NCBI GenBank assembly: GCA_019694215.1
Contig: JAIBCK010000005.1
Location: forward strand, 1 to 63,355
Reading direction: 5' to 3'
DNA: 63,355 nucleotides
DNA from: Thermoflexales bacterium
GTDB lineage: Bacteria; Chloroflexota; Anaerolineae; J036; Brachytrichaceae
Made by a program: the position numbers and the translations under genes
Shown: one piece after another, positions 52,292-61,245 of the stretch
How positions within the stretch are numbered: position 1 is the first letter of the stretch
How the letters are laid out: every line of letters starts with the position of its first letter
The notes under the pieces: model-generated
Database searches by the model: none
What the model was told of the DNA's origin: nothing
What the model saw: the letters and a program-made list of their open reading frames with translations, nothing else

Positions 52292-53095
52292 CTAGGCCTC
52301 GAGTTTTGACTCGCCGAGCGCCGCGTTCGTGGCGGCGATCAGCGACGTCGCCAGCAGCGGGTCCTGATCGCGGCTCGGCACCCAGTAGTACAGCCGCAAT
52401 CGTTGCGCGCCATCGGCGTTGAGAACCACTTCGGCGCTGGTCGGTCGGCCCGTCGGCGCGGGTGCCACCTGTTGCGCGGCCTGCACCGCGGTCGCGACGG
52501 CCTTGCGCGCATCCGCGCCGGCAGCCAGCGGGAATTCCAGCGAGCGCCGCAGCACGGGCCGCGCCGTGCGGTTCTGCAGAATACTGCCATAGACCAGCCG
52601 ATTTGGGATGAGTGTCTCGATCCCGTCATTGTTGAGGATGGTGGTGACGCGCAGTGAGATGTCGCTGACCTCGCCTTCCTGGCCCGAGACCGAGATGATG
52701 TCGCCAACGACATACGAGCGGCTGAGCAGGATGAGCAGGCCGGAGATCGTGTTCTCGAGAATGTCCTTGAGCGCAAAACCGATCGCCAGGCTGGTCAACC
52801 CGAGGCCGGCCACGAGCGAAGTGACATCGATGCCGACCACGCCCATGGCAATGATGCCGACGAGGGTGAGGACGATGGCAAAGGCGAGCTGAGAGAGGAC
52901 CGTGTCCAACGTATCGCCTTTACGACCAAGATTGGCCCGCGTGATTGCGCGGAAGATGGTGCGCCGTACGATGTCGGCGATGCCATACCCGATGCCAAAC
53001 ACGATCAGGGCCATCAGCAGCCGCGGCAGGCTCTGGCCCAGGTCCTGCACCGATTGCAGCAGTCCGTCAAGGAGGTTCTGGAGAAAGGGGCTCAT
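52292..53095 (-). CDS. Small-conductance mechanosensitive channel (MscS family)
   Basis: 267 residues with three N-terminal membrane helices and a pore helix with the MscS pattern VASLVAGLGLTSLAIGFALKDILENTISGLLILL, followed by the beta domain with YVVGDIISVSGQEGEVSDISLRVT and the motif PNRLVYGSILQN. It releases small solutes under membrane tension. It overlaps the stop of the NYN gene (ATGA), which suggests they are co-transcribed. Confidence 0.93.
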   Translation of the reverse strand: MSPFLQNLLDGLLQSVQDLGQSLPRLLMALIVFGIGYGIADIVRRTIFRAITRANLGRKGDTLDTVLSQLAFAIVLTLVGIIAMGVVGIDVTSLVAGLGLTSLAIGFALKDILENTISGLLILLSRSYVVGDIISVSGQEGEVSDISLRVTTILNNDGIETLIPNRLVYGSILQNRTARPVLRRSLEFPLAAGADARKAVATAVQAAQQVAPAPTGRPTSAEVVLNADGAQRLRLYYWVPSRDQDPLLATSLIAATNAALGESKLEA

Positions 53096-53739
53096 TTGCT
53101 TTTCTTGCGGCGGTCAATTTTGAGTTCGCCATCGCTCTCCACGGTGCGCGAAGATGGCAGCGACGGCGGCAAGGGGCGGGAATTGGCGAGCTGCTGGCGT
53201 AGCCGCTCGGACTTGCTCAGTTTGGGCGGCGGCGGCGGTGGCGCGGGCCGGGCGGCGGGCGTCGGCGCAGGAGGCGGCTCGGTGAAGACATCCGCCCAGT
53301 TCTCGTACTCACGGTGGGCGCTGGGTTTTTCACCGCTGGGGCGGGGGCGCAGGGCCTCGTCCATCTGCCGGAGAAAGGCACTGGAGGACGAGATGTTGCG
53401 CAGCCCGCACGCGCGCGCAAAGGCGACGATGGCGGCATCGGACGTCACGAGGATCAGACCTTGTTTGTCGCGCTCCTCGCCGATGCGGGCGCGGATGACG
53501 TCATCGGCCTTTTCACCGGCGTGAGCGAAGACGACGCGCACGTCACCGTGCTGGCGTGTCTCGCGCCAGCGGCTGGGCGCGCTGTCCGCGCCCGGGTCAA
53601 AAATCACCGTGATGCGCTTGCGCGACGCTGCCGCGTAGCGCTGCAGGCGGGCGACGAGTTTGCCCTCGTCGTCGGGGTCGCTGAGCGAAAGGTCGCGCAT
53701 CTGGCCGATCAGGTTGTGGCCGTCTATCAGAAGCGGCAT
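53092..53739 (-). CDS. NYN domain ribonuclease (YacP-like)
   Basis: 215 residues. The NYN/PIN-like core covers about 1-115: LLIDGHNLIGQM, ITVIFDPG, VVFAHAGEKADDVIRARI and GLILVTSDAAIVAFA, with acidic residues arranged for metal-dependent RNA cleavage. YacP (Rae1) of Bacillus cleaves mRNA on the ribosome; a similar role is possible. The C-terminal third is a Pro-rich and Lys/Arg-rich tail. A minus-strand TAGAAT (53746-53751) ends six bases upstream of the ATG. Confidence 0.88.
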   Translation of the reverse strand: MPLLIDGHNLIGQMRDLSLSDPDDEGKLVARLQRYAAASRKRITVIFDPGADSAPSRWRETRQHGDVRVVFAHAGEKADDVIRARIGEERDKQGLILVTSDAAIVAFARACGLRNISSSSAFLRQMDEALRPRPSGEKPSAHREYENWADVFTEPPPAPTPAARPAPPPPPPKLSKSERLRQQLANSRPLPPSLPSSRTVESDGELKIDRRKKSK

Positions 53740-53766: not shown

Positions 53767-53772
53767 TATAAT
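53767..53772 (+). promoter_or_regulatory. -10 box of the arginine operon
   Basis: A perfect TATAAT nine bases before the GTG of the leader peptide. Transcription would start at about 53779-53782, so the leader peptide would be leaderless or nearly so. No good -35 box is apparent. Confidence 0.6.
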
Positions 53773-53781
53773 CGCCGCACT

Positions 53782-53862
53782 GTGAATCCAGTTGCGTTCG
53801 CCATTCGCGCCCGTCGTCGTGGCAGTCTGACCGAGGTCAGCCTCCACCGATGCGTCGCGTAG
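53782..53862 (+). CDS. Putative arginine leader peptide
   Basis: A 26-codon open frame from GTG to TAG: MNPVAFAIRARRRGSLTEVS and LHRCVA. Five codons are arginine; CGC at 53806 and three consecutive CGT at 53812-53820 form the control run. CGT looks less used than CGC in the neighbouring genes. Together with the downstream terminator and antiterminator it forms the normal logic of attenuation: stalling at Arg codons should leave 53840-53846 free. It is not the product of a known gene family. I cannot show that it is translated. Confidence 0.6.
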   Translation: MNPVAFAIRARRRGSLTEVSLHRCVA

Positions 53863-53930
53863 CGCGGAGCATCTGGCGGGTAGTGGGCAGGCGGGCCTCT
53901 GACATCGATGTGTTGGAGGCCTTTTCATTT
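53840..53930 (+). promoter_or_regulatory. Attenuator: antiterminator pairing and intrinsic terminator before argC
   Basis: The terminator stem pairs GGCCTC (53894-53899) with GAGGCC (53916-53921). Inner pairs continue through the next bases to a CGAT loop, giving about 11-12 pairs with some G-U, and TTTTCATTT follows (53922-53930). The 3' arm is also complementary to GCCTCCA (53840-53846), which pairs perfectly with TGGAGGC (53914-53920). A small hairpin GAGG-TCAG-CCTC (53833-53844) can hide this antiterminator arm. The ArgC ribosome site lies after the terminator. Confidence 0.65.
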
Positions 53931-53962
53931 GTGGCACGCGGGTGCCGCAAGGAGGGAGTGGC

Positions 53963-54994
53963 ATGCTACGGATCGGAATCTTCGGGGCAACGGGCTACAC
54001 CGGGCTGGAGCTGGTGCGCCTGCTGCAAAACCATCGCCAGGCCCGCCTGGTGTTCGCGCACTCCGAGAGCAACCCCGGCGCAAAACTGTCGGACATCATT
54101 CCCTGTCTGTACGATGTGCCGCTCATCAAGGCCGATGACGCGCCCCTGGCGGATGTCGACGTGGTCTTCTCCTGCCTGCCGCATGCCGCCTCCGCGGAGC
54201 TGGCGGCCCGCGTGCTCGCGGCCGGGAAGAAGGTCGTCGACCTTTCGGCCGATTTCCGTCTGACCAATGCCGCGGTATACGAAAAAACCTACAAGCATGT
54301 GCACCCGCACCCGGAGCTGCTCACCCGGGCGGTGTATGGCCTCCCCGAACGCTACCGCGAACGCATCGCGCAGACGGACCTGGTCGCCAATCCGGGCTGC
54401 TATCCGACCAGCACGATCCTACCGGCTCTGCCGCTGCTGGAGGCGGGTGCCCTGGCCGAGCCCGTCCTCATCGCGGACAGCAAGAGCGGGGTGAGCGGCG
54501 CGGGGCGCAAGCCCAGCACCACCACGCACTTCGTCGAGGTAAATGAAGGCCTGACCCCGTACAACGTCGCCAACGTCCACCGGCATGTCCCCGAGATCGA
54601 CCAGGTCCTGAATGACATCGACAACGGGCGCACGCCGGGTGGGGTGAACGTGATCTTCACGCCGCACCTGCTGCCGATCAGCCGCGGCATGCTCACGACG
54701 CTCTACGTGCGCCTGACGCCGGAGGCGCGCCAGACCGACTGGCAATCCGTCTTCGAGAAGCGATATGCCAACGAGCCCTTCGTGCGCGTCTTGCCGCGCG
54801 GGCAGACCGCCTCGATCGCGCATGTGGCGCGGACGAACATGGCCGCGATCTCCCTTCATCCGTTGGGCGGCGCCGTCGCCGACCGCCTGCTGCTGGTGTG
54901 CGCCATCGACAATCTCACCAAGGGCGCAAGTGGCCAGGCGCTGCAGAACATGAACCTGATGTTCGGGCTGGATGAACGGGAAGGGCTGCGCTAG
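53963..54994 (+). CDS. argC: N-acetyl-gamma-glutamyl-phosphate reductase
   Basis: Third step of arginine synthesis: reduces N-acetylglutamyl phosphate with NADPH to the semialdehyde. It is 343 residues, with IGIFGATGYTGLELVRLLQNH at the N-terminus and the active site NPGCYPTS with Cys146. The pattern SKSGVSGAGRKP and FTPHLLPISRGMLTT follow. AGGAGGGAG (53950-53958) supports the ATG. First structural gene of the operon, after the attenuator. Confidence 0.97.
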   Translation: MLRIGIFGATGYTGLELVRLLQNHRQARLVFAHSESNPGAKLSDIIPCLYDVPLIKADDAPLADVDVVFSCLPHAASAELAARVLAAGKKVVDLSADFRLTNAAVYEKTYKHVHPHPELLTRAVYGLPERYRERIAQTDLVANPGCYPTSTILPALPLLEAGALAEPVLIADSKSGVSGAGRKPSTTTHFVEVNEGLTPYNVANVHRHVPEIDQVLNDIDNGRTPGGVNVIFTPHLLPISRGMLTTLYVRLTPEARQTDWQSVFEKRYANEPFVRVLPRGQTASIAHVARTNMAAISLHPLGGAVADRLLLVCAIDNLTKGASGQALQNMNLMFGLDEREGLR

Positions 54995-56257
54995 GTGACG
55001 CGGGTGCTGCGGCGCGGGCTGCTCGCGCTCGGGGTGTTTCTGTGCGCGCTGGCCGGGGCGGCGCTGCTATGGCTCAACGTGCGCCTGGTCGCCACGCCCG
55101 CCAACGCCTATCCCGCAGGCGGGCTGGGGCCGGATATCGTCGCCCAGCTCGACGGCATCGGGCGACGGTTGCGCGCCGGCGAAGGGCGCGAGATGCAGGC
55201 GATCTTTCCCGAGGGCTGGTTCTTCAGCCACATGACGTATGGCTATGCCTGGGTCAACGTTGGGCTTGCGACGGGTGACCCGGCGCTGCGCGCCCGCGCC
55301 ATCGCCGAGACGCGCTGGGTGCTGGAACGCGCGGACAGCCCGGAGGGGCTGGCGCCCTTCACCCGAGCCACACAGGTGCCGCATGGGGTGTTCTATCTCG
55401 GTTGGACAAATCGCCTGCTGGGGGGGCTGTTGCTTCTGCAGGCGCCCGCCGAGCGCAGCACCGCGGATCTCGCCCGGCTGAAGACGCAATCGCGCCAGCT
55501 GGCCGACGCGATGCGCGCCAGCCCGAGCGGCAACCTCGACGCGTATCCCGGCCAGTCCTGGCCGTGCGACAACGTCGTCGCGTTGGCCTCGCTGGCCGCG
55601 CATGACGCCGTGTTTGGCCCGACCTATGCCGACGTCATGGCGCGCTGGGTGACGCTGACCCGGGCCCGTCTCGATCCCGCCACCGGGCTGATCCCACATG
55701 CCGCCAACGCCGCGACGGGGGTGGCGACCATCGGGCCGCGGGCTTCGACCCAGGTGTACATCCACGCCTTCCTGCCCGAGGTCGACGCCGCCTTTGCGCG
55801 CGAGCAATACGCCCGCTACCGCGAAGTCTTTGTCACCTCGGTCGTCGGCTTCCCGGTCAGCCTGGAGTATCCGAAGGGCAGCCGCGGGCAGGGCGATGTC
55901 GACACCGGCCCGCTCGTGCTTGGCATCGGGCCCTCGGCCACGGTGGTCGCGATCGCATCGGCGCGCGCCAATGGCGATGGTCCGCTGGCCGAACGCATTA
56001 CGGTCCTGAGCGAGCTGTTTGGCTTCCCGGTGACGAAGGCACAGGGCAAGTCGTTCGCTCTTGGCACGCTCGTGGTTGCGGATGGCTTTCTGGCGTGGGG
56101 CAAGAGCCTGCTGCCGTGGACGGCGCCGGCGCCGGCGCTGTCCGATGATCCTGCCAGCCTGCGCCTGCCGCTGCACCTGATGTCGCTCGCGTTGTTGGCT
56201 GGCATCACGGTTCTTGCGCTGCGGATGATCGCCACGTTGAGAAGGAGGAAGGCGTGA
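54995..56257 (+). CDS. Unknown membrane-anchored protein, likely alpha/alpha barrel
   Basis: 420 residues that I do not recognise as an arginine enzyme. The N-terminus is a membrane helix (GLLALGVFLCALAGAALLWLNV); the C-terminus has a second one (LHLMSLALLAGITVLALRMIATL) with a positively charged end. Between them are repeated helical pairs, such as FFSHMTYGYAWVNVGLATGDP, GWTNRLLGGLLLLQ, PCDNVVALASLAAHDAVFG and GDVDTGPLVLGIGPSATVVAIASA. The pattern suggests an (alpha/alpha)6 toroid, as in some lyases or linalool-dehydratase-like proteins. The GTG start directly follows the argC stop; the end overlaps the next gene (GTGA). So it is part of the operon. Confidence 0.7.
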   Translation: MTRVLRRGLLALGVFLCALAGAALLWLNVRLVATPANAYPAGGLGPDIVAQLDGIGRRLRAGEGREMQAIFPEGWFFSHMTYGYAWVNVGLATGDPALRARAIAETRWVLERADSPEGLAPFTRATQVPHGVFYLGWTNRLLGGLLLLQAPAERSTADLARLKTQSRQLADAMRASPSGNLDAYPGQSWPCDNVVALASLAAHDAVFGPTYADVMARWVTLTRARLDPATGLIPHAANAATGVATIGPRASTQVYIHAFLPEVDAAFAREQYARYREVFVTSVVGFPVSLEYPKGSRGQGDVDTGPLVLGIGPSATVVAIASARANGDGPLAERITVLSELFGFPVTKAQGKSFALGTLVVADGFLAWGKSLLPWTAPAPALSDDPASLRLPLHLMSLALLAGITVLALRMIATLRRRKA

Positions 56258-56778: not shown

Positions 56779-58053
56779 ATGGAAATCCTCGAAGCCAAAA
56801 CTGATGCCCATTTCGACGCCGTACGGCGCCTGCTGGCCGCCTACATCGCCGAGCATGGCTTCAGCCCGAACACCAGCAGCATCTTTCGCGATCTGGGCGA
56901 TTTGCCCGGGCGCTATGCGCCGCCGGATGGCGCGCTGTTTCTCGCCGTGCTGGGCGAGGAGCCGATTGGCTGCGTGGCGCTGGCGGCCAGCGCGGATGGC
57001 ACAGCCGAACTGAAGCGACTGTTTGTCTCACCGCCGCGCCGGGGCGCGGGGGTGGGTCGTGCGTTGTGCCAGGCCGTCATCGCGCACGCCCGCGAGACGG
57101 GTCGCCCGCGCCTGGTGCTGAGCGCGCGGGCGTCGTGGACGCCGGCCGTGTCGCTGTTCACGTCGCTGGGCTTCATTGCCACCGAGCCCTTCAAGCCGCT
57201 CAAGCCCGTGGACATGATTTTCATGGGGTTGGACTTGTCGGCGACCGCGCCACGGCCCGCCGAGGACGCTTCCACGGTCGAGGTTTACAAGGTGAGCGGC
57301 AGCGACCTGGACGATCCCGCCTTTGCCGCGACCCTGGCGCGCGAGCTGGCCACCCGCTGGCGGGATGGCACGCGCCTGGTGCTTATCCACGGCGGCGGCA
57401 AGGAGCTGACCGAGCTGCTGACCGCGCTGCAGATCCCGACGCGCTTCTCCGAAGGGCTGCGGGTGACGACGCGGGCGGGGCGGGATGCCGCGCTGATGGT
57501 CCTGAGCGGGCTGGCCAACAAACGCCTCGCGGCGGCGCTGATTCAGGAGGGCATCCAGGCCATCGGCGTGTCTGGCGTGGATGCCGGCGTGGTGCGCGTG
57601 GAGCGCATCAACGACGAGCTTCAATACGTTGGGCGTCCCGTTTCGGTGCGGGCCTCGACGCTGCGGGCCTGGCTCGAGGGCGGCTGGCTGCCCGTCATGG
57701 CGCCGATGTCGCTGGGCGTCGATGGCGAGATCTACAACGTCAATGCCGACCACGTCGCCGGTGCGGTGGCCGCGGCGCTCGGCGCAAAGCTGCTCACCTT
57801 CATCACCAACGTGCCCGGGGTGCTCAACAAACGCATGGAGCTCATCCCAACCCTGACCGCCCGCAAGACCGAGGCGCTGATTGCCGATGGCGCAATCTCG
57901 GGCGGGATGATCCCCAAAGTGCGGACCTGTCTGGAGGCCCTCGACGCCGGGGTCACCCGCGTCCGCATCACCAACCTTGCTGGCGTGAGCGCCGGCAAAG
58001 GCACCGTGTTCATACCGGCAGGCCAGGACGCCGTCGCCGAACCAAGTTCCTGA
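56779..58053 (+). CDS. argB: GNAT-acetylglutamate kinase fusion protein
   Basis: 424 residues. The N-terminal domain (about 1-155) is a GNAT with RRGAGVGRALCQAVIAHA and FTSLGFIATEPFK. The C-terminal domain (about 165-420) is an amino-acid kinase: VYKVSGSDLDD, VLIHGGGKELTELL, VTTRAGRDAALMVLSGLANKR, NVNADHVAGAVAAALGA, FITNVPGVL and SGGMIPKVRTCLEAL. This fits N-acetylglutamate kinase. If the GNAT makes N-acetylglutamate, one polypeptide would do the first two steps. Known fusions (NAGS/K of some bacteria and fungi) have the kinase first; here the order is reversed. No LysW-like carrier gene is nearby, so the arginine role is favoured. Confidence 0.85.
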   Translation: MEILEAKTDAHFDAVRRLLAAYIAEHGFSPNTSSIFRDLGDLPGRYAPPDGALFLAVLGEEPIGCVALAASADGTAELKRLFVSPPRRGAGVGRALCQAVIAHARETGRPRLVLSARASWTPAVSLFTSLGFIATEPFKPLKPVDMIFMGLDLSATAPRPAEDASTVEVYKVSGSDLDDPAFAATLARELATRWRDGTRLVLIHGGGKELTELLTALQIPTRFSEGLRVTTRAGRDAALMVLSGLANKRLAAALIQEGIQAIGVSGVDAGVVRVERINDELQYVGRPVSVRASTLRAWLEGGWLPVMAPMSLGVDGEIYNVNADHVAGAVAAALGAKLLTFITNVPGVLNKRMELIPTLTARKTEALIADGAISGGMIPKVRTCLEALDAGVTRVRITNLAGVSAGKGTVFIPAGQDAVAEPSS

Positions 58054-59415
<1,362 letters not shown>

Positions 59416-59418
59416 GCC

Positions 59419-61245
59419 GTGACCGACGCCGCACAACCAGACATCTCCATCCGCGCAGCGACGCTCGACGATGCGCCGGCCATCGCGCGCCTGGTGGCGG
59501 AAAACGCCCGGCGCGGCGGACTGCTGCCGCGCAGCGAAGCGAACATCCGCGCCACCATCGACAACTTCCTGGTGGCTGTGGTCGAGGGTCGCGTGGCGGC
59601 GTGCGGGTCGCTGCTCCCGATGAGCGCCAACCTGGCCGAGCTGCGTTCGCTGGCCGTCGACGAGAGCCTGCGCGGGCGCGGCGTCGGCCAGCTGCTCGTG
59701 GCGCGGCTGATCGAGGAGGCGCGCGCGCGCCAGTTCTCGAGCCTGTTCGCGCTGACCCGGGCGATCTCGTTCTTCGAGCGCTGCGGGTTCGTCCAGACCC
59801 CCAAGGAGAACTTTCCCGAGAAGGTCTGGAACGACTGCGTAGCGTGCCCGCTGCTGGCCAACTGCGATGAAGTCGCGGTGACTTACGAGCTCGATGACGC
59901 GCAGGAGGCGCCTGTGCGCGCCGAGGACTTTTCCATGCAGGAGCCCGGCCAGCTGCTGGCCGAGCGCAGACGGAGAAAGACCATGACCAAACGTCCCACT
60001 GTCAACAAGGTCGTGCTTGCCTACAGCGGCGGGCTGGATACCACCGTGATCGTGCCGTGGCTGCGCGAGACCTACGGCTGCGAGGTGGTTTGCTTCATCG
60101 CCGACATCGGCCAGGGCGACGACCTGGACGCGGCCCGCGACAAGGCCCTCAAGAGCGGTGCCACCCGCGTCGTGATCGAGGATCTGCGCGCCGAGTTCGC
60201 GCGCGAGTATCTCTTCCCGCTCGTCCAGAGCGGCGCCGTGTACGAGCGCCACTACCTGCTGGGCACGGCCATCTCGCGTCCGCTGATCGCAAAATACCAG
60301 GTCGACATTGCCGCGCAGGAGGGCGCTGATGCGGTCGCGCACGGCGCAACGGGGAAAGGCAACGACCAGGTGCGCTTCGAGCTGACCTACATGGCCCTCA
60401 ACCCGCGCCTCAAGGTCATCGCCCCGTGGCGCGAGTGGAACTTCAAGGGCCGCGAGGACCTGATCGCCTATGCGCGCAAGGCGGGCATTCCGCTGGCGCA
60501 GGGTGTCAAGACCGCCTACACAAGGGATGGCAACCTGTGGCACCTCAGCCATGAGGGCGGCGACCTGATCGACCCGTGGAACAGCCCGAGGGAGAACGTT
60601 TTCGAGCGCACCGTCGCGCCCGAGGCCGCGCCCGACATCGCCGACGAGGTCGAGATCGAGTTTGTCTCCGGCGTGCCACGACGCGTCAACGGCAAGAGCA
60701 TGGGCGCGGCCGAGATCGTCATGCTGCTCAACGAGTACGGCCTCAAGCACGGGGTGGGGCGCGTCGACATGGTGGAGAACCGCCTGGTCGGGATGAAAAG
60801 CCGCGCCGTTTATGAGACCCCGGGCGGGACCATCCTCAAGGTCGCCCACGAGGGGCTGGAACAGCTCATTCTCGACCGCGAGACCATGGCCTTCAAGCAG
60901 ATGGTCGCGCTCAAGTTCGCCGACCTGATCTATGATGGGCGTTGGTTCACACCGTTGCGCGATGCCCTGCAGGCCTTCATCTCGGTCACCCAGCGCGATG
61001 TCACCGGCACCGCCCGGGTGCGGCTCTTCAAGGGCGTGGCCAGCCTGGCCGGGCGCAAGGCCACCTACTCGCTGTATCGCGAGGACCTGGCCACGTTCGC
61101 GCGCGAGGACGTCTACAATCAGCGCGATGCCGACGGCTTCATCCGCCTGTTTGGCCTGCCGATGCGGGTCAAGGCCCAGGTGGACATGAACCGCGTCGTG
61201 CGCGCAGCACCGCTGGGGCCGGGTGCCTCGGACAAACGCGACTGA
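59419..61245 (+). CDS. argG: Short N-acetylglutamate synthase fused to a second argininosuccinate synthase (common type)
   Basis: 608 residues in one frame. Residues about 1-160 are a short NAGS-type GNAT: IRAATLDDAPAIARLV, LRSLAVDESLRGRGVGQLLV, FALTRAISFFERCGF and the diagnostic VWNDCVACPLLANCDEVAV. Residues about 195-600 are an argininosuccinate synthase of the common type: VVLAYSGGLDTTVIVPWL, FIADIGQGDDLDAARDKAL, HGATGKGNDQVRFELTY and YTRDGNLWHLSHEGGDL. The linker has an in-frame ATG at 59983 (MTKRPTVNK) with GGAG about seven bases upstream, so free synthase could also be made. The GTG start follows the previous stop by three bases. Confidence 0.88.
   Translation: MTDAAQPDISIRAATLDDAPAIARLVAENARRGGLLPRSEANIRATIDNFLVAVVEGRVAACGSLLPMSANLAELRSLAVDESLRGRGVGQLLVARLIEEARARQFSSLFALTRAISFFERCGFVQTPKENFPEKVWNDCVACPLLANCDEVAVTYELDDAQEAPVRAEDFSMQEPGQLLAERRRRKTMTKRPTVNKVVLAYSGGLDTTVIVPWLRETYGCEVVCFIADIGQGDDLDAARDKALKSGATRVVIEDLRAEFAREYLFPLVQSGAVYERHYLLGTAISRPLIAKYQVDIAAQEGADAVAHGATGKGNDQVRFELTYMALNPRLKVIAPWREWNFKGREDLIAYARKAGIPLAQGVKTAYTRDGNLWHLSHEGGDLIDPWNSPRENVFERTVAPEAAPDIADEVEIEFVSGVPRRVNGKSMGAAEIVMLLNEYGLKHGVGRVDMVENRLVGMKSRAVYETPGGTILKVAHEGLEQLILDRETMAFKQMVALKFADLIYDGRWFTPLRDALQAFISVTQRDVTGTARVRLFKGVASLAGRKATYSLYREDLATFAREDVYNQRDADGFIRLFGLPMRVKAQVDMNRVVRAAPLGPGASDKRD

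Follow-up and report, generated by a model that had tools for sequence, protein, structure and literature searches.

The region 53767-53962 of the window (the whole stretch of 63,355 nucleotides that was analysed) is very probably a ribosome-mediated transcription attenuator that senses arginine, in the form of charged tRNA-Arg, and controls the argC operon. The host belongs to the class Anaerolineae of the Chloroflexota. Bacterial arginine genes are textbook targets of ArgR. The element described here appears to be an arginine attenuator of classical logic, probably leaderless, that is conserved in a class without ArgR; we infer the regulation itself from the sequence. A sequence-only reading of the same DNA had proposed transcription attenuation by an arginine-codon leader peptide in a Chloroflexota, and this proposal is supported by the conservation in the class and by the absence of ArgR. 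Computation showed the anatomy of the locus and its conservation in the class, an antiterminator that is complementary to the terminator and coevolves with it, sensor codons that agree with the genes downstream of them, and the absence of ArgR.

The features of the locus are given in Table 1. A re-check of the sequence found every element of the sequence-only reading, from the -10 box to the complementary arm, at its position. The intrinsic terminator (53893-53922) has a stem of 13 bp and a hairpin energy of -19.9 kcal/mol, and it is the only plus-strand terminator in 600 bp, where about 0.3 would be expected on both strands. The leader RNA is more stable than its shuffles (z -3.3, and z -2.5 for the fold that ends at 53934). 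Since the upstream neighbour is transcribed away from the region, the terminator can act only on transcripts that start before argC. The operon headed by argC continues in the same direction with a GNAT-argB fusion, argG and an N-acetyltransferase-argG fusion. The two argininosuccinate synthase genes (58075-59415 and 59419-61245) differ from each other and are adjacent; the second carries an N-acetyltransferase domain and argB a GNAT domain. An ORF of 420 residues (54995-56257) between argC and the GNAT genes has no NCBIfam or Pfam match, and a second G+C-rich hairpin, GGCACGCGGGUGCC, lies at 53931-53949 between the terminator and the ribosome-binding site of argC. Taken alone, the anatomy of the window is suggestive; on the sequence evidence, it is the conservation in relatives that puts it beyond chance.

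Table 1. Features of the argC leader and operon in the window, and loci carrying the related module at arginine, lysine and proline genes.
Feature	Position	Strand	Remarks
Divergent neighbour, YacP-like NYN domain protein	53092-53739	-	PF05991, E 2.7e-17
-10 box TATAAT	53767-53772	+	no good -35; from sequence
Leader-peptide ORF	53782-53862	+	GTG start, 26 codons, TAG stop; reads MNPVAFAIRARRRGSLTEVSLHRCVA*
Sensor codons CGC-GCC-CGT-CGT-CGT	53806-53820	+	leader codons 9-13
Segment 1, CUGAC	53827-53831	+	pairs with segment 2
Segment 2, CGAGGUCAG	53832-53840	+	by alignment to the conserved GUGUGUC element of relatives
GCCUCCA, arm of the sequence-only reading	53840-53846	+	complementary to terminator 3' arm 53914-53920 (TGGAGGC)
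Terminator 5' arm	53893-53905	+	segment 3 = CUGACAUCG, 53899-53907
Terminator 3' arm (segment 4)	53910-53922	+	followed by T-rich tail to 53930
Ribosome-binding site of argC, AGGAGG	53950-53955	+	from sequence
argC, first gene of the operon	53963-54994	+	TIGR01850, 375 bits, E 3e-112
GNAT domain fused to argB (acetylglutamate kinase)	56779-58053	+	TIGR00761, E 2.6e-60
argG (PRK05370 type)	58075-59415	+	E 2.7e-244
N-acetyltransferase fused to second argG	59419-61245	+	argG part E 6e-175
Tandem modules, locus L300	491-749
Tandem modules, locus L301	432-708
Tandem modules, locus L302	416-696
Tandem modules, locus L303	246-587
Tandem modules, locus L304	382-661
Module loci at lysine genes			L300-L307, L312-L314, L317, L319
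Module loci at arginine genes			L280, L285, L290, L291, L293, L297, L309, L315
Module loci at proline genes			L296, L298, L299, L308, L310, L311

Searches with the argC protein covered 60 relatives, 298 class genomes and 251 phylum genomes, and the class sample consists of 144 Anaerolineae argC upstream regions. A good terminator precedes argC in 120 of these 144 regions. An Arg-run ORF, meaning a short frame in which three or more of six codons are Arg, in turn precedes the terminator at 102 of the 120 terminator-bearing loci; dinucleotide shuffles give 41.5±4.9. Each of the other 19 residues stays within z 2.3 of the shuffles at these loci; as the loci are related, such z-scores overstate independence. 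Related genomes lacking Arg codons in the leader had been named as an observation that would speak against arginine attenuation, and these Arg runs provide no such refutation. Outside the phylum the enrichment is near background, with Arg leaders in 16 of 35 argC regions versus 11.8±2.4. Within the genus, the one other genome examined (67% complete) has no orthologue of the leader; a candidate homologue was rejected because the match spans 48 bp and falls inside the argC paralogue of a genome that is incomplete.

In the window's own family the leader can be aligned, and its Arg core R-x-R-R is present in 21 of 21 members, the window included. Most of these leaders keep VSG (GTGTCCGG), and their stop lies further on than in the module of the class. 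An exact TATAAT stands at the same place in 20 of the 21, and several of them carry TTGACA 17 nt upstream. The box ends 7-10 nt before the start codon in 19 of the 21 leaders (in the window, TATAAT lies 9 nt before GTG), a spacing that is not fully independent evidence because the ORFs were picked partly by a nearby -10 box, while the identity of the box is independent. This distance puts the predicted transcription start at the start codon or within a few bases of it and leaves no room for a Shine-Dalgarno site. The family leader peptide is therefore probably leaderless, the transcription start itself being a prediction from the sequence. Elsewhere in the class, many families possess a 5' UTR, which frequently contains a purine-rich site, and others seem leaderless like the window's family. 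The families differ as well in where the leader ends: the stop lies about 20 nt downstream of segment 2 in the window and 20-40 nt in its family, while it overlaps segment 2 in sister families (TCTGGATAG). With the stop at this greater distance, masking of segment 2 by a terminating ribosome would be less direct than in trp or in the sister families.

The distribution of ArgR complements this picture. The ArgR DNA-binding domain was found in none of 60 class genomes searched, with positive controls, and in 54 of 251 phylum genomes, every one of them outside the class; the contrast with ArgR control drawn by the earlier reading is thus borne out, ArgR being missing from the whole class sample. 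In 20 ArgR-positive Chloroflexota, the regions before argC yielded a single terminator and not one Arg leader. A second set, 20 ArgR-negative genomes of the phylum from outside Anaerolineae, yielded four terminators, three of them with an Arg leader. To judge from these genomes, the two forms of control, ArgR and the leader attenuator of argC, look mutually exclusive in Chloroflexota, as if one stood in for the other. Where ArgR occurs in the phylum-level genomes, its gene is often found a few kb away from argC.

Related leaders occur beyond argC. A covariance model (R1) was built from class argC leaders and run on 120 class genomes. Besides argC, it matches upstream of argG, carA, homocitrate synthase, lysW, lysX and the prolyl-tRNA synthetase gene proS, or of neighbouring genes. 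It gives no match in the window's own family, whose version of the element has diverged. The leaders of the module end in -PDxxSG-stop: CC[AG]GAC of segment 1 encodes Pro-Asp and UCUGGAUAG of segment 2 encodes Ser-Gly-stop, so that hairpin, frame and stop codon are locked together. What changes with the downstream gene are the codons ahead of this tail. Counted over the twelve codons before it, Arg makes up 84 of 321 in arg leaders versus 20 of 180 elsewhere (p 3e-5), Lys 31 of 120 in lys leaders versus 17 of 381 (p 3e-10) and Pro 18 of 60 in proS-type leaders versus 31 of 441 (p 1.5e-6), the proline group including metallophosphatase and LOG-family genes whose link to proS is assumed. A pair of tandem modules precedes homocitrate synthase or lysW at several lys loci, and both members of the pair come with a short ORF and a terminator of their own.

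Having sequence and frame in common, the Arg, Lys and Pro modules may go back to one ancestor. We consider it fairly probable that Anaerolineae use one modular, ribosome-read attenuator as a general amino-acid regulator in the place of ArgR, in a role like that of T-boxes in Firmicutes. Such a module would consist of CC[AG]GAC-loop-GUCUGG-A-UAG followed by a terminator that contains CCAGAC, with an invariant -Pro-Asp-x-x-Ser-Gly-stop tail in a fixed frame, sometimes in tandem, and with exchanged codons: Arg for argC, argG and carA, Lys for homocitrate synthase, lysW and lysX, and Pro for proS. The window would then represent a diverged, leaderless branch. In the window's genome, no attenuator was found upstream of proS. 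The citramalate synthase gene of this genome (TIGR00977; contig C95, before 1162, L322) is preceded by a strong terminator and by a leader ORF with several Ile codons (MTARPCAILSITSIRPHTIAARIW...) that starts 9 nt after TACAAT. This leader is a candidate for a second attenuator in the genome, of isoleucine type.

For argC, we propose the following mechanism, in which the transcription start, the actual translation of the leader, the stalling and the direction of control are predictions. RNA polymerase would begin at the start codon of the leader or immediately beside it, where a ribosome would then load, apparently with no Shine-Dalgarno site to guide it. This ribosome is expected to stall on CGC/CGT-CGT-CGT and to cover segment 1 (CUGAC) if charged tRNA-Arg runs short. 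Segment 2 (the CGAGGUCAG region) would then be free to pair with the emerging 5' arm of the terminator, the terminator would fail and argC would be transcribed. When arginine is plentiful, the ribosome would run through, and segment 2 would be disrupted or return to the 1:2 hairpin. With segment 2 unavailable, the terminator hairpin 3:4 could form and transcription would stop.

The choice of the terminator arm was examined with a triple test, in which a 6-9-mer pairs with a nearby upstream segment as well as with a terminator arm, in 119 leaders. A conserved triple with the terminator 5' arm is present in 72 of the 119, compared with 15.2±3.7 in shuffled leaders, while triples with the 3' arm occur at the shuffled rate (21 of 119 versus 20.5±2.8). 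When terminators were swapped between genomes, the own 5' arm fitted best (mean residual -3.5 kcal/mol, permutation sd 0.26) and the effect for the 3' arm was weaker (-1.75). The conserved element and its partner read GUGUGUC/GACACAC in the window's family, GUCCGG/CCGGGC in another family and GUCUGG/CCAGAC elsewhere, and the leaders contain the compensatory pairs GTCTGGA:TCCAGAC, ATCTGGA:TCCAGAT, GCCTGGG:TCCAGGC and GTGTGTC:GACACAC. By these sequence patterns, the relatives use the classical 1:2 / 2:3 / 3:4 scheme with the antiterminator on the 5' arm of the terminator. Pairing with the 3' arm as a general rule across the class is not supported, its triples being at the shuffled rate. In simulations of the growing transcripts, the antiterminator formed in 17 of 17 family leaders with a ribosome stalled at the cluster's final Arg codon and was absent in 8 of the 17 with a ribosome at the stop; for the window, the difference between the two ribosome positions was small. 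At equilibrium the terminator always wins, and the model therefore requires co-transcriptional kinetics.

For the window, the sequence leaves little doubt about what kind of switch is present, and both registers are compatible with this one genome. The 1:2 hairpin CUGAC-CGAG-GUCAG has -5.9 kcal/mol, and segment 2 pairs with segment 3 over 8 of 9 bases, with one mismatch (-10.3 kcal/mol); alternatively, GAGGUC (53833-53838) pairs with GGCCUC (53894-53899) inside a larger fold. This 5'-arm pairing is degenerate and weaker than in the relatives (z +0.8, rank 67 of 110 among swapped arms). The sequence-only reading had instead placed the antiterminator on the 3' arm, with arginine attenuation working through GCCUCCA at 53840-53846, which a ribosome at the TAG would mask. 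We regard this variant as possible but rather doubtful. The poor 5'-arm match of the window favours it, as do the seven perfect pairs of GCCUCCA with the 3' arm (-13.7 kcal/mol), which are unusually strong as the second best of 110 swapped arms (residual -5.2), and its place 14-20 nt ahead of the stop, where a terminating ribosome would cover it or come close to it. However, a conserved counterpart of GCCUCCA was looked for in the relatives and not found, 3'-arm triples there do not exceed the shuffled rate, and the aligned segment 2 of the window still offers pairing with the 5' arm. The main point of that reading, arginine attenuation, thus stands, and its antiterminator arm fails as the general mechanism, the conserved arm being the 5' one.

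Where a terminator precedes amino-acid genes, a T-box or riboswitch often reads it, and the terminator of the argC leader could serve such a trans-acting or ligand-binding device, or an RNA-binding protein, with the Arg ORF being incidental. Arginine T-boxes are indeed known (PMC1262725). We nevertheless hold such a device to be very unlikely, because an Rfam search with the window and 20 class leaders gave no T-box, riboswitch or other family at threshold, because the choice of Arg, Lys or Pro codons agrees with the gene that lies downstream, and because the conserved RNA is a short hairpin and a terminator, set in the frame of the ORF and of its stop. Below the Rfam threshold, a plasmid ctRNA, microRNAs, an sRNA and, in L034, an end-truncated c-di-GMP-I-GGC appeared, none of which bears on the argC leader. 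It is similarly improbable that translation of the leader acts without the intrinsic terminator, by Rho exclusion, mRNA decay or translational coupling. Leaders with Arg codons do act in such ways in Salmonella speF orf34 (PMC6386406) and S. aureus rbfL (PMC13009471), but here 120 of 144 loci conserve a strong intrinsic terminator together with an antiterminator complementary to it, and the argC site at 53950-53955 lies 88 nt past the leader stop. Chance, meaning a constitutive promoter, a random Arg-rich ORF from G+C-rich DNA and an unrelated terminator or small RNA, has some basis in that ORFs with Arg runs are frequent in such DNA (35% of shuffles). Arg enrichment, pairing triples, ArgR exclusivity, the family alignment, the fit of the own arm and the match between codons and genes all disfavour it strongly, and we consider it the most remote of the explanations.

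Arginine attenuation in the argC leader would mean that a whole class, apparently without ArgR, senses arginine by ribosome stalling on a leader peptide. In the literature searched, we found no description of such specificity for a bacterial arginine operon and no leader-peptide attenuator of one; the work of Lopatovskaya et al. 2010 on comparative attenuation (Mol Biol 44:128; cited in PMC4833913) may contain a prior prediction. If the reuse of one cassette with swapped sensor codons is true, it would be a ribosome-based counterpart of the T-box, and a few codons would tell the specificity of many uncharacterised Anaerolineae operons. The system also offers a clear test of leaderless translation driving attenuation.

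Comparative work describes attenuators for histidine, threonine and phenylalanine, T-boxes for tyrosine and arginine and an L-box for lysine (Seliverstov et al., PMC1262725), and leader-peptide systems were known only from Proteobacteria and Actinobacteria, to which Naville and Gautheret added Firmicutes by their own finding (PMC2965389). With the classical attenuators (trp, his, leu, thr, phe and ilv of Proteobacteria, trp of Actinobacteria) the argC element shares a leader ORF with cognate codons, the 1:2 / 2:3 / 3:4 pairing and an intrinsic terminator before the first biosynthetic gene. In contrast to them, it would sense arginine, belongs to Chloroflexota without ArgR and is probably leaderless in the window's family, and the module of the class serves Arg, Lys and Pro alike while its -PDxxSG-stop tail stays fixed. 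In Salmonella, the consecutive Arg codons of the short upstream ORF orf34 of speF sense arginine as well, but act on a polyamine gene through RNase G decay, Rho and sequestration of a site, with no intrinsic terminator on an arginine operon (PMC6386406). The rbfL leader peptide of S. aureus reports arginine limitation by pausing at Arg codons; there, translational occlusion lowers a biofilm regulator, the opposite outcome and without a terminator (PMC13009471). Mycobacteria come close in another respect, as leaderless cysteine-rich small ORFs have been proposed as amino-acid leaders, the sensor peptide being encoded right where a leaderless mRNA begins (PMC4633059), but they concern cysteine and have no obvious terminator (PMC1262725). 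Like the module of the class, T-boxes use one terminator/antiterminator design for many amino acids across a bacterial group, but they bind tRNA directly, whereas the module, for which no T-box match was found, would be read by the ribosome at codons. In fungi, the arginine attenuator peptide of arg-2/CPA1 is an upstream peptide that senses arginine, as proposed for the argC leader; this system is eukaryotic and differs in that the nascent peptide stalls on arginine excess.
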